Shown: in pieces, positions 58,316 through 64,000 of the stretch
How the letters are laid out: every line of letters starts with the position of its first letter
Numbering within the stretch: the first letter of the stretch is position 1
From: Paenibacillus thiaminolyticus
GTDB lineage: Bacteria > Bacillota > Bacilli > Paenibacillales > Paenibacillaceae
Direction of reading: 5' to 3'
DNA: 64,000 nt
Assembly (NCBI RefSeq): GCF_007066085.1
Contig: NZ_CP041405.1
Span: forward strand, 3,066,001-3,130,000
Position numbers and translations under genes: made by a program
The notes under the pieces: generated by a model
Database searches by the model: none
Told to the model about the DNA's origin: nothing
The model's input: the letters and a program-made list of their open reading frames with translations, nothing else

Positions 58316-59212
58316 CTAGGATCGATGCGCGGCCCTATCCAGCAAGGCGATGAACTGTCTTGCCGCCGGGGATAGATGCTTGTTTTTATGAAAAATATAA
58401 CGAATGCCCCGTTCAAAGGTTACATCCTCCATCGGAATCTTGACAAGCAACCGGCTGTCGATTTCCTGCTTCACCGCAAGCCCGGACACCGCCGCAATGC
58501 CTAGTCCGTGTATGACACCTTGCTTGATCCCCTCGAGGCTGCTGATTTCGATTGTATTGGAGATGGCAATCCCCGCTTGCCCAAGTTTTTGATCAAGAAA
58601 ATGCCTTGTCGCTGAATGATCCGGCTTCATCAGAAAGGTCTCATGCTGGAGATCATGCAGGGTGCACATGTCTTGCTGCGCCAATGGATGGTGCGGCGGC
58701 GCAATAAATACAAGATGATCTTGATGAAACGTGCTCGCATAAAAACGGGTCTCGTCGATGGGAATATGATCCGATAAGACGAGAAATTCCACGCCGTTGG
58801 ACTCCAGCAGCTGCGTGAGCTGTTGGGACGACGTTATTTTCATGCTGATATTAATATTGGGGAACTGCGCTTTATATTGAGCAAGCATGGAAGGAAGCAA
58901 ATAGACGCCAACGAAGTTGCTTGCGCCAAAGGAGAGGGTCCCTGCTGACATATCCTCCATTTGATGAAGATGCTCCTTGGCCGCTTGCAGCAAGTTCACG
59001 ATCTGTTCCGCGTAGGGCTTGAACAGCTCGCCTTGTTTGGTTAAGTACAGCTTTTTGCCGATTCGATCGAACAGGCGCGTCTCCAAGTCCTCTTCCAAGC
59101 TTTGAATTTGCATGCTGACCGCCGGTTGAGAACAGTAGAGCCGTTCCGCCGCCTCCGTGAAATTTAAACAATGAGAGAGCGTAATGAAGGTTTCGAGCTT
59201 GTTGATATTCAT
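58316..59212 (-). CDS. LysR-type transcriptional regulator
   Basis: A 298-residue LTTR with an N-terminal winged helix (LNFTEAAERLYCSQPAVSMQ) and a type 2 periplasmic-binding-like effector domain (ISMKITSSQQLTQLLESNGV; EISSLEGIKQGVIHGLGIAA). It is closest in feel to the CysL/CysB-like LTTRs but the effector is unknown. It is transcribed away from the DASS transporter gene with a 136-base gap holding a T-N11-A dyad, so it probably regulates that pair. ATG 59224 is also possible, but is only 3 bases from the ribosome binding site. Confidence 0.88.
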   Translation of the reverse strand: MNINKLETFITLSHCLNFTEAAERLYCSQPAVSMQIQSLEEDLETRLFDRIGKKLYLTKQGELFKPYAEQIVNLLQAAKEHLHQMEDMSAGTLSFGASNFVGVYLLPSMLAQYKAQFPNINISMKITSSQQLTQLLESNGVEFLVLSDHIPIDETRFYASTFHQDHLVFIAPPHHPLAQQDMCTLHDLQHETFLMKPDHSATRHFLDQKLGQAGIAISNTIEISSLEGIKQGVIHGLGIAAVSGLAVKQEIDSRLLVKIPMEDVTFERGIRYIFHKNKHLSPAARQFIALLDRAAHRS

Positions 59213-59241
59213 CGCATGACTCATCCTCCTCCGATATAACT

Positions 59242-59256
59242 ATAACGAAATGTTAT
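59242..59256. promoter_or_regulatory. LysR-type T-N11-A dyad
   Basis: ATAAC-GAAAT-GTTAT is a perfect dyad in the divergent LysR/DASS intergenic region, of the classic LTTR box form. Confidence 0.6.
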
Positions 59257-59277
59257 GAATACGATTATGCAATCAAA

Positions 59278-59307
59278 TTGTCTTATAATTATAGGCGCCG
59301 TTATAAT
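59278..59307 (+). promoter_or_regulatory. Sigma-A promoter of the DASS transporter operon
   Basis: The -35 TTGTCT (59278-59283) and consensus -10 TATAAT (59302-59307) are 18 bases apart. The LTTR dyad lies about 25 bases upstream, where activation would be expected. Confidence 0.65.
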
Positions 59308-59348: not shown

Positions 59349-60845
59349 ATGACGATGAAGCCATTCAAGTCAGACGGCAATTCCACAGAACCGAACAAAC
59401 CAGTGGCGAAGAAAGGTCGCTTTGAATCGATATTTAAAAAAGCAGGGATTCCGCTAGCCGTCCTGGTGTTCCTCATTCTGATGCTCATGCCCACGCCCGC
59501 AGGCTTGGAGCCGCAAGCGCAAAAAGCGATTGCAATCTTCGCCAGTGCGCTTATACTATGGGTCAGCGGCGCCTTGCCGATTTACTTAACCTCCATGATC
59601 GCCATTATTGTGCTGAGCTTATCCGGTACCGCTGAAGAGAAAACGGCCTTCGGCACGCTTGGATTTGATGTCATTTGGCTCATGGTGTCCGCGTTTATTC
59701 TTACCTCCGCGATGATTAAGTCCAATCTGGCGCGAAGGTTTGCGCTCTGGATGGTGACCAGGTTCGGACAAACGCCAAAGAAGACATTGCTTGTCTTAAT
59801 TTTCATCAACTTCGCCCTCGCGTTCTTCGTGCCATCGACGACAGCGCGGGCAACACTCATGGTGCCGATCTGTCTCATCTTGTTGGAGATCTATAAGGCC
59901 ACTCCCGGAAAAAGCAATTTCGGCAAATTAATGATGCTGCAAGGGGTACAAGCCGATGCGATCGCCACATCCGGAGTGATGACCGCGACGGCTGCGAACA
60001 TCATTGCCGTCGGCTTCATTAACGAGCAAGCTGGAGGCTCAATCGGATATATGGATTGGCTCGCCGCCTCCATGCCAACGGCCATCATTACGATGCTGCT
60101 GACGTTCTTCGTTGGTCTCAAGCTCTTCTCCTTCAAAGGGGAGGCGGAGTTCGAAGGCGCAATGTCCAAGCTCAAAGATGAATTGAAGAAGCTGGATAAA
60201 TTTTCGCTGGATGAGAAAAAGGCCATGACAATCTTCTTGCTTACGGTTCTGTTATGGGCGACGGAAGATTATCACAAATTCTTGTTCGGCTTCGAAATTA
60301 GTGTATACATGACAGCGGTCATTGCAGGCGTGCTCTGTCTGCTGCCGCGAATCGGATTGCTTACTTGGAAGGAAGCCAACATTAAATGGGATCTGATGAT
60401 TTTTGCCGCAGGCGCTTATGCCGTCGGGAATGCGTTGGAGAAGTCGAAGGGCGCCGAATGGATGATCAACAAAGTCGTCTACGGTCTCGGCCTGGAACAA
60501 ATGAATCATATGCTCGTCTATGTCGTCGTTATCTTTATCAGTATGTACAGTCATTTAATATTCACGAGCAAGACGGTACGGACCACGATCCTGATTCCCG
60601 CTTTTATCGCGCTGGCCAAATCGTTAGGGATGGACCCGGTTACGCTTGCCCTGGCTTCCGCCATGACGTTAACCTATACGATTACGTTACCGCCGCATTC
60701 AAAAGTAAATACCATTTATTTCTCAACCGGATATTTCAGCGTGTTTGATCAGGTGAAATATGCTATCGTTACCTGCTTTATCGGTGCGACCGTCATTAGT
60801 GTGTCCGTATTTACGTGGTTCCAAATTCTTGGATATTCATTATAA
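59349..60845 (+). CDS. DASS-family anion:sodium symporter or exchanger
   Basis: A 498-residue membrane protein of the divalent anion:Na+ symporter family (SLC13/CitT/YflS type), with about 11-12 hydrophobic segments after a charged N-terminus. Family members carry dicarboxylates, citrate, sulfate or related anions. The first substrate-binding signature, usually S-N-T, reads S-T-T at residues 163-165 (VPSTTARATLMVP), and the second half has MYSHLIFTSKTVRTTILIP. The substrate is unknown. The start is at 59349, 8 bases after GGGAGG. It is followed after 37 bases by an ApgM-like gene. Confidence 0.9.
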   Translation: MTMKPFKSDGNSTEPNKPVAKKGRFESIFKKAGIPLAVLVFLILMLMPTPAGLEPQAQKAIAIFASALILWVSGALPIYLTSMIAIIVLSLSGTAEEKTAFGTLGFDVIWLMVSAFILTSAMIKSNLARRFALWMVTRFGQTPKKTLLVLIFINFALAFFVPSTTARATLMVPICLILLEIYKATPGKSNFGKLMMLQGVQADAIATSGVMTATAANIIAVGFINEQAGGSIGYMDWLAASMPTAIITMLLTFFVGLKLFSFKGEAEFEGAMSKLKDELKKLDKFSLDEKKAMTIFLLTVLLWATEDYHKFLFGFEISVYMTAVIAGVLCLLPRIGLLTWKEANIKWDLMIFAAGAYAVGNALEKSKGAEWMINKVVYGLGLEQMNHMLVYVVVIFISMYSHLIFTSKTVRTTILIPAFIALAKSLGMDPVTLALASAMTLTYTITLPPHSKVNTIYFSTGYFSVFDQVKYAIVTCFIGATVISVSVFTWFQILGYSL

Positions 60846-60882: not shown

Positions 60883-62124
60883 ATGCTATACAGAAAAGTA
60901 ATTATGGCCATTGCAGACGGATCGGGAGATCGCCCGCATCCGCTTTTAAATGATAAAACACCGTTAGAATATGCCGATACACCTCATTTGGATCGGTTGG
61001 CTGCGGAAGGAATCACTGGCATGATCGATTTAATCGGATCGGGAATTCCCGTTGGAACCGATATGGGGCATATGATATTATTCGGCTTTCAGCCGGAGGA
61101 CTATCCGGGCCGCGGCCCCATTGAGGCGCTCGGCATCGGTATGGACGTCGAGCCCGGAGATGTCGTGCTTCGATGCAACTTCGCCACGATTAATGACGAG
61201 GGCGTTGTCCTGGACCGCCGTGCCGGGCGAATCCGCAACAACACGGCAGGGCTTGCCGATGCGCTTGATGGGATGGAACTCATTGAAGACATCCGCGCTT
61301 ACTTCAAGCCGGCAACGGAGCATCGGGCTGTGCTCGTTCTGCGCGGTACCGGTCTTAGCGATCGGATCAGCGATTCCGATCCGAAAGCGCCGAACGACGG
61401 CCAACCTTATCTCCCTGTTGAAGCGCTGGATGAGACGCCGGAAGCGAAGCGGACCGCCATGGCCGTTAACCTTTTTATGAAAAAGGCCCATGCGATTCTT
61501 GCTTCGCATCCCATCAATCGGGAGCGTATGGCGCAAGGACATCCGCCTGCCAACTTCATTCTGACCCGAGGCGCGGGAAGAATGGCGCAATTGGAGCCCA
61601 TCGCCACGACAATGAAGTTCCGCGGCAGCTGCATCGCTGCGGAAAGCACAGTGCTCGGGGTGGCCAAGCTGGCCGGCTTCGAAGCGATTACCGACGCCAG
61701 GCTGACGGGCAGCATAGATACTGACGTTGAACTAAAAGCAAAGCTGGCGCTTGAGCAAATTGCCCGCCATGATATTGTCTACGTCCATCTCAAGGCTCCT
61801 GATTTGATGGGACATGACAATGACCCGTTGAAAAAAGCACTCACCCTTGAATTATTCGACCGGATGGTCGGGCTGATCGCGGAGCAGCTGCCTGACGACG
61901 TCTACTTGGCTCTGGCCGCGGATCATTCAACGCCTTGTGAAGTGAAGGAGCATACGGGAGAGCCTGTCCCGGTCGTGATCTACGGCCCGAGCATCCGCAA
62001 AGATCGGGTAACATCTTATAATGAAATGGACTGCGCATATGGCGCCTTAGGGTGCATGTCCGGCAATGAGTTCGTGAGGACCTTGCACGGTCTGATGGGA
62101 TATGTGAAGAAGCAGGGAAATTAA
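60883..62124 (+). CDS. ApgM-family phosphomutase/phosphohydrolase with predicted Thr nucleophile
   Basis: A 413-residue member of the alkaline-phosphatase superfamily, closest to archaeal cofactor-independent phosphoglycerate mutase (ApgM). Metal-binding Asp12 lies in IMAIADGSGDRPHP, and HNRE-type ligands in KAPDLMGHDNDPLK and LALAADHSTPCEV. The nucleophile loop reads IPVGTDMGHMILFG: archaeal ApgM has Ser where this has Thr59. RGPIEALGIGMDVEPGDVVL and RCNFATINDEGVVLDRRAGR are conserved. It shares an operon with a DASS anion transporter, so it may act on an imported phosphorylated or phosphonate-like acid rather than in glycolysis. The start has AGAGGAG upstream. Confidence 0.8.
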   Translation: MLYRKVIMAIADGSGDRPHPLLNDKTPLEYADTPHLDRLAAEGITGMIDLIGSGIPVGTDMGHMILFGFQPEDYPGRGPIEALGIGMDVEPGDVVLRCNFATINDEGVVLDRRAGRIRNNTAGLADALDGMELIEDIRAYFKPATEHRAVLVLRGTGLSDRISDSDPKAPNDGQPYLPVEALDETPEAKRTAMAVNLFMKKAHAILASHPINRERMAQGHPPANFILTRGAGRMAQLEPIATTMKFRGSCIAAESTVLGVAKLAGFEAITDARLTGSIDTDVELKAKLALEQIARHDIVYVHLKAPDLMGHDNDPLKKALTLELFDRMVGLIAEQLPDDVYLALAADHSTPCEVKEHTGEPVPVVIYGPSIRKDRVTSYNEMDCAYGALGCMSGNEFVRTLHGLMGYVKKQGN

Positions 62125-62134
62125 GTTCAATCCG

Positions 62135-62173
62135 AAGCGGAGTCTTTGATCGCATCAAAGACTCCGCTTTTTT
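62135..62173 (+). terminator. Terminator of the DASS/ApgM-like operon
   Basis: A perfect 15-bp inverted repeat (AGCGGAGTCTTTGAT and its complement, 3-base loop CGC) is followed by T6. One further A-T pair extends the stem. Confidence 0.95.
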
Positions 62174-63170: not shown

Positions 63171-63287
63171 GCTTGGCAGCGTCCTACTCTCCCAGGACCC
63201 TGCGGTCCAAGTACCATCGGCGCTGGAGGGCTTAACGGTCGTGTTCGGGATGGGTACGCGTGGAACCCCTCCGCTATCGCCACCAAA
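63171..63287 (-). rRNA. rrf: 5S ribosomal RNA
   Basis: The minus strand begins TTTGGTGGCGATAGCGGAGG and contains the diagnostic CCCATCCCGAACACG and GGGAGAGTAGGACGCTGCCA. Length is about 117 bases. It follows the 23S gene by 64 bases; ends are approximate to a few bases. Confidence 0.95.
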
Positions 63288-63351
63288 CAGATAAGGTATT
63301 GTACCTTAAAAACTGAATGCGAAAGTTTGTCTTGCGAATCATCTTACTTAG

Positions 63352-64000
<649 letters not shown>

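Follow-up and report, generated by a model that had tools for sequence, protein, structure and literature searches.

The closest described relatives of the enzyme considered here are the archaeal phosphoglycerate mutases (ApgM), of which two proteins with solved structures were compared: PH0037 (2zkt) and the T. acidophilum enzyme (3kd8 and 3idd, which are one protein). Archaeal-type iPGM genes have been described in Clostridia and other bacteria, with none in 96 Bacilli, and the part of that account available to us mentions neither a Thr variant nor a carrier (PMC2964296). Regarding whole systems, the substrate-induced import of phospho-acids that we propose below resembles PgtP of Salmonella, but PgtP, according to the accessible part of PMC10715179, is an MFS antiporter under two-component control and without a dedicated enzyme, whereas our module consists of a DASS carrier, an enzyme and a LysR-type regulator. 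The PhnR-PhnA and PalR-PalA operons also cluster a LysR gene, transporter genes and a gene for a P-releasing enzyme; these, as far as the available text of PMC10574752 goes, have transporters and enzymes of other families and phosphonate substrates. The families of the enzyme and of the carrier are known, and so is control by LysR.

The window, i.e. the whole stretch of 64,000 nucleotides that was analysed, covers positions 3066001-3130000 of the 6.6 Mb single-contig genome of Paenibacillus thiaminolyticus. An earlier note on this DNA had described an ApgM-like enzyme with an adjacent DASS anion transporter gene and a divergent LysR gene, and both neighbours lie where it placed them. The features of this module (positions in the window) are as follows:

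58316-59224, minus strand: LysR-type regulator of 302 aa (PF00126 and PF03466), divergent from the carrier gene
59242-59256, no strand assigned: inverted repeat ATAAC-N5-GTTAT, probable LysR operator of the T-N11-A type, predicted from the sequence
59271-59281, no strand assigned: second conserved box AATCAAATTGT, from the gap alignment
59278-59307, plus strand: sigma-70-like promoter TTGTCT-18-TATAAT, predicted for the carrier-enzyme pair (consensus scan, 10/12 matches)
59349-60845, plus strand: DASS-family sodium-coupled anion carrier of 498 aa (PF00939; TIGR00785)
about 59832-59849, plus strand: PSTTAR loop of the carrier, located by alignment
about 60564-60575, plus strand: TSKT loop of the carrier, located by alignment
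60883-62124, plus strand: ApgM-T, an ApgM-type metalloenzyme of 413 aa with an ATG start and Thr at the nucleophile position
61054-61071, plus strand: GTDMGH loop of ApgM-T (residues 58-63; Thr59 codon at 61057-61059)
62134-62170, plus strand: intrinsic-terminator-like hairpin (17 pairs, then a T run; consensus scan), which closes the two-gene operon

ApgM-T matches both Pfam domains of the family far above the cut-offs (PF10143 cap, 167.9 bits; PF01676 core, 133.6 bits) and scores 433.1 bits with the TIGR00306 apgM model (cut-off 320). Archaeal phosphoglycerate mutases are the top match of its predicted fold, which is common to them over the whole length, and its identity to 2zkt is 42.1% in the alignment. 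HMMER aligned T59 to the Ser of GSDTAH in 2zkt and of GSDTSH in 3idd and 3kd8, which bears out the earlier reading of G-T-D-M-G-H as a Thr in place of the catalytic Ser. The same note had considered the metal ligands intact, and indeed the six candidate residues D12, D307, H311, D347, H348 and H357, which we take to bind metal as in iPGM, are invariant in a 60-sequence alignment. When the conserved columns of the clade were compared with both archaeal chains, only five positions differed, including Thr59. ApgM-T shares with archaeal ApgM both Pfam domains, the fold, the metal-ligand columns and most of the other conserved ones, but differs from it in the Thr nucleophile, in a Gly at position 62, in forming a clade of its own, in its linkage to genes for a carrier and for a LysR protein, and in that the genome usually has a separate GpmI.

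Thr59 is not a stray change in the window protein. T was found in 121 of 121 sequences (the window and the best 120 of 5304 matches) and in 120/120 sequences of a sister group (the best 120 of 1035 matches, without overlap with the first set); as both sets hold the best 120 matches only, these counts describe the clade and not the whole family. The alignment suggested in the earlier note, asking for conservation of this Thr in a clade that neighbours DASS genes, thus gave T in the window protein and in 240/240 listed relatives, and a link to the carrier in all 24 loci read (see below).

The models of narrower scope were less uniform. The cut-off of the PRK04024 equivalog (489 bits) divides the Thr clade internally, as the window protein (466.4) and L085 (447.1) fall below it and L079 (499.5) and L126 (494.2) above; the Ser-type protein of L076 also exceeds it (496.2). 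ApgM-T remains under the cut-offs of TIGR02535 (ThrB2, proposed homoserine kinase; 258 bits, cut-off 446.3) and NF038358 (PhpG phosphonoformyl transferase; 280.6 bits, cut-off 545), and far under those for DeoB, the phosphopentomutase, which has another cap domain and a sugar-phosphate substrate. Phosphopentomutase belongs to the same Pfam family and also uses a Thr nucleophile, so this residue is not diagnostic of a hydrolase or of NPP/PhnA enzymes and, taken alone, settles no reaction type. The earlier note had regarded it as typical of nucleotide pyrophosphatases and phosphonoacetate hydrolase; the Thr is present at the aligned position, but the window protein gave no match to PF01663 (Phosphodiest, the NPP/PhnA type) at E <= 0.001. 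Some homologues of ApgM-T do bear a precomputed PF01663 tag. Among the matches listed, named clade members carry the label of phosphoglycerate mutase, and the closest named enzyme match is from Paenibacillus thiaminolyticus (95%).

A family survey with TIGR00306 covered 398 genomes of a phylum sample, of which 124 gave matches. In total 128 loci were read, exclusive of the window's own locus and a 61-aa fragment (G505:C202); L058 and L060, duplicates of L003 and L004, were removed before counting, and the window and L057, whose source genomes are near-identical, were each counted. The nucleophile residue is S in 118 loci, T in 8 and a gap in 2. Most of the Ser loci have PGSDVAN or PGSDTAN, the type to which ThrB2 belongs according to the accessible part of PMC9026213. 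One protein with such a motif, L027, was tested and exceeds the cut-offs of two models, that of the proposed homoserine kinase (528.5 bits, cut-off 446.3) and PRK04200 of phosphoglycerate mutase (560.6 bits, cut-off 426). Of the eight T loci, five belong to the DASS-linked clade and two, L086 and L094, do not; L098 is divergent, its aligned T being doubtful. In a 59-row enzyme tree built with a quick method, the DASS-linked Thr sequences formed one clade (SH-aLRT 98), joined to 2zkt at 81, with L086 and L094 on long branches outside.

Three other loci of the family may be mentioned here. At L086:906-4696, a Thr case outside the clade, a GTDTAL ApgM-like protein is encoded behind genes that read as cobalamin-biosynthesis-like. 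On a Rhodococcus plasmid (L127:4338-7287), a distant ApgM-like gene of the 'alkaline phosphatase family' directly follows an annotated selD and a cytidyltransferase gene, a group that possibly represents a nucleotidyl-activated pathway. In a Bacteroides plasmid record (L128:2541-7613), an ApgM-like gene that scores 600 bits with the homoserine-kinase model (cut-off 446.3) lies between thrA and thrC.

The link between enzyme and carrier is constant in the material examined. In a family sample of 295 genomes, enzyme and carrier (each at E <= 1e-60) matched the identical 12 genomes, and in a phylum sample of slightly different size (396 genomes, against 398 in the survey) the carrier was present in exactly the six genomes with a clade enzyme; as the genomes are related, these co-occurrences are not independent events. 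All 24 distinct clade-enzyme loci read, a small share of the 241 clade sequences, are linked to the carrier, with the two genes adjoining in 19 and separated by one gene in 5. In 19 rows (longest-ORF starts; two duplicates), carrier and enzyme are on the same strand with a gap of at most 49 nt, including one 8-nt overlap; in the window the gap is 37 nt. The carrier and enzyme distances of the 24 loci are correlated (r = 0.953, with 0/9999 permutations as high), which shows joint inheritance, as common descent alone would raise r too. The LysR-carrier-enzyme module is also able to reside on plasmids: at L126:5367-9059 it is found on a Macrococcus plasmid, where a predicted mecB and a gene for a class A beta-lactamase are also present.

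The carrier scores 240.6 bits with TIGR00785 (cut-off 198.6), and all 14 solved relatives listed for it are DASS/SLC13 carriers. PF00939 and TIGR00785 are common to it and to DiT1, SLC13A2 and VcINDY, but its substrate loops contain STT and SKT, whereas the aligned loops have SNT and SNV in SLC13A2 and SVS and SGA in DiT1. Loops of the SNT type are thus absent from the window carrier, and from DiT1 as well. PSTTAR was found in 147/147 aligned carrier rows and TSKT in at least 139/147 (duplicates included). To our knowledge, DASS carriers transport plain carboxylates or sulfate and never phosphate esters, and we know of no class of phosphate-ester acids among the substrates of DASS/SLC13.

In the five sister loci, some of which are close relatives of one another, the gene order is the same throughout: LysR, carrier, a ca. 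250-aa exported protein, the enzyme, and a beta-CASP protein of metallo-beta-lactamase fold. Their carriers are 47-48% identical to that of the window. The operons are:

L079:3690-6989
L081:3341-6770
L083:3333-6924
L084:3219-6645
L085:3964-7250

Two genes flank that of the Thr enzyme here, one for an exported beta-sandwich protein and the other for a beta-CASP nuclease-like protein. LysR and carrier are separated in L083 by an ORF that, by reading, is transposase-like.

A LysR homologue is encoded 5' of the carrier in 23 of the 25 distinct module loci (the 24 and the Klebsiella locus described below); none was found in L008 and L059. The inverted repeat ATAAC-N5-GTTAT is exact in 9 of the 20 LysR-carrier gaps examined, with near variants in several more, and AATCAAATTG is invariant in 11/11 aligned Paenibacillaceae gaps, its final T being A in two; both counts are without a shuffle control. 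The promoter call is weak alone, because the scan of the region gave 8 sites against 5.6 +/- 2.3 in shuffles. The terminator hairpin has the longest stem of the 8 found, a count slightly above that of shuffles (5.1 +/- 2.1).

A different gene follows the carrier on plasmid pmk2 of Klebsiella sp. PL-2018, where LysR and carrier genes precede a gene for a 201-aa CobC-like histidine phosphatase instead of ApgM-T. The pmk2 carrier is 72% identical to that of the window and hence nearer to it than those of the sister loci. The carrier tree contained 15 Proteobacterial rows, 14 of which were grouped (96) beside the window carrier (82) and among the enzyme-linked ones; P0357 (Edaphovirga) fell outside this group, and the program issued a warning on the long branch of L085. 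For the phosphatase, CobC-type models score highest, all below cut-off, with dPGM models lower still, and its best solved relatives are CobC and entries named phosphatase (1ebb and 1h2e, PhoE). As the displacement concerns one plasmid locus, with a gap of 130 nt and an adjoining IS6 transposase, chance adjacency could explain it.

Homologues of the pmk2 phosphatase occur in 63 other plasmid records. Four of these regions were examined, one of which bears no annotation. In the three annotated regions read (50-53% identity), the gene lies behind ABC-importer genes, with an RpiR-type regulator before the phosphatase and, in 2/3, a Na/Pi cotransporter gene after it; this order can be read as organophosphate import, internal release of Pi and Pi export. 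On alphaproteobacterial plasmids (L187:3087-10285 and L188:3110-10360), the operon comprises an RpiR-type regulator, a binding protein without an NCBIfam match, an ABC permease, an ATPase, the histidine phosphatase and the Na/Pi cotransporter, and looks like a separate system of organophosphate import and dephosphorylation.

Based on these comparisons, we tentatively favour the view that the module imports and dephosphorylates a phosphoglycerate-like acid, although we would not quite call it probable. The LysR protein would respond to the acid taken up, or to what is made from it, by switching on the operon of carrier and enzyme. Sodium-coupled import of a small phosphorylated carboxylic acid would presumably be the task of the DASS carrier, whose second substrate loop contains a Lys, and ApgM-T would hold this acid in the cytoplasm in a pocket of the phosphoglycerate mutase type. 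Thr59, activated by two divalent metals, might then accept the phosphate to form phospho-Thr. The phosphate would most likely pass to water, yielding the free hydroxy acid and Pi, or, less likely, back to another hydroxyl, as in a mutase. Phosphoglycerate would be among the likeliest substrates, along with close analogues like phosphoglycolate, phospholactate or an unusual isomer. Hydrolysis is favoured because of the histidine phosphatase in the enzyme's place, the redundancy with GpmI, and a PhnD/PtxB-like binding protein (L010:6258-7130; a lipoprotein by reading) encoded 15 nt past the stop codon of the Thr enzyme in L010, where no ABC permease or ATPase was recognised in the remaining 1.6 kb.

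On the other hand, the mutase-type columns kept in ApgM-T and the L059 locus, in which a GAPDH-like gene (under every GAPDH cut-off) takes the place of LysR about 270 nt 5' of the carrier, would be no less compatible with a mutase. The carrier would then import 2-PG, 3-PG or PEP, in the manner of Salmonella PgtP, and ApgM-T would be a dedicated mutase feeding gluconeogenesis or glycolysis. Its nearest solved relatives, by identity, tree and fold, are phosphoglycerate mutases, and Thr nucleophiles are known among mutases, as in phosphopentomutase. Bacterial uptake of PGA and PEP exists as well, according to the available part of PMC10715179. However, a second mutase would be redundant in the 15 of 17 module genomes that have GpmI as a separate gene, a phosphatase takes its place in Klebsiella, and the clade's Thr, invariant in the sequences examined, contrasts with the Ser of both solved archaeal proteins; we consider this route rather unlikely. 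Glycerate kinase, present in 15/17 module genomes and 18/18 controls, does not help in choosing between the readings. A kinase-like phosphotransferase, acting on an acid that enters unphosphorylated, would agree with the plain carboxylates and sulfate that, as far as we know, DASS carriers transport. ThrB2, a member of the ApgM family, is a proposed homoserine kinase (PMC9026213, accessible part), a ThrB2-like copy lies between thrA and thrC, and PhpG is a phosphonoformyl transferase according to NCBIfam. Nevertheless, R113, R116, H147, R229 and K304 are retained in ApgM-T and altered in the six ThrB2-like sequences compared, and a kinase would hardly be swapped for a histidine phosphatase, which makes such a reaction improbable.

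The earlier note had proposed uptake and dephosphorylation, or C-P cleavage, of an acid. The first part agrees with the linkage in 24/24 loci and with the phosphatase in the enzyme's place, while for the second, in which the carrier would import a phosphonocarboxylate like phosphonoacetate or phosphonopyruvate and ApgM-T would cleave its C-P bond as PhnA does, we see very little chance. PhnA is an enzyme of the AP superfamily with a likely Thr nucleophile, and LysR genes and transporters recur in C-P hydrolase operons (PMC10574752, available part); the binding protein 3' of the enzyme in L010 would also fit, as would the 165 bits of the LysR protein on an aminoethylphosphonate LysR model (cut-off 341, with two other models scoring higher). 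Against this, the window protein does not match PF01663 at the threshold given above, its closest relatives are phosphate-ester mutases, the Klebsiella substitute is a phosphoester enzyme, and none of the ten neighbour genes tested with Pfam encodes a phosphonate enzyme.

Returning to import with dephosphorylation, it is possible, although we have clear doubts, that the module represents a laterally mobile type of phospho-acid import, in which a DASS/SLC13 subtype for phosphate-ester acids is combined with an exchangeable cytoplasmic P-releasing enzyme from either of two unrelated superfamilies; this would be ApgM-Thr in Bacillota, and in Proteobacteria a histidine phosphatase (one locus). In the open full-text literature, outside which most subscription papers lie, we found no account of the Thr clade as a constant partner of a DASS subtype, or of the histidine phosphatase exchange. 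If import and dephosphorylation were true, the phosphoglycerate mutase annotation of the clade would have to be corrected, phospho-acids would join the substrate range of the DASS/SLC13 superfamily, and intact organic phosphate would be taken up in Bacillota and perhaps Proteobacteria. A clade labelled phosphoglycerate mutase, with an invariant nucleophile swap and its own carrier and regulator, also offers a clean test of the Ser-to-Thr swap in a mutase scaffold.

Beyond the module, the window contains a 5S rRNA gene (63171-63287, minus strand) and a 23S rRNA gene of which the end is included (63349-64000, minus strand), and on the opposite flank what reads as a ctsR-mcsA-mcsB-clpC-like operon.
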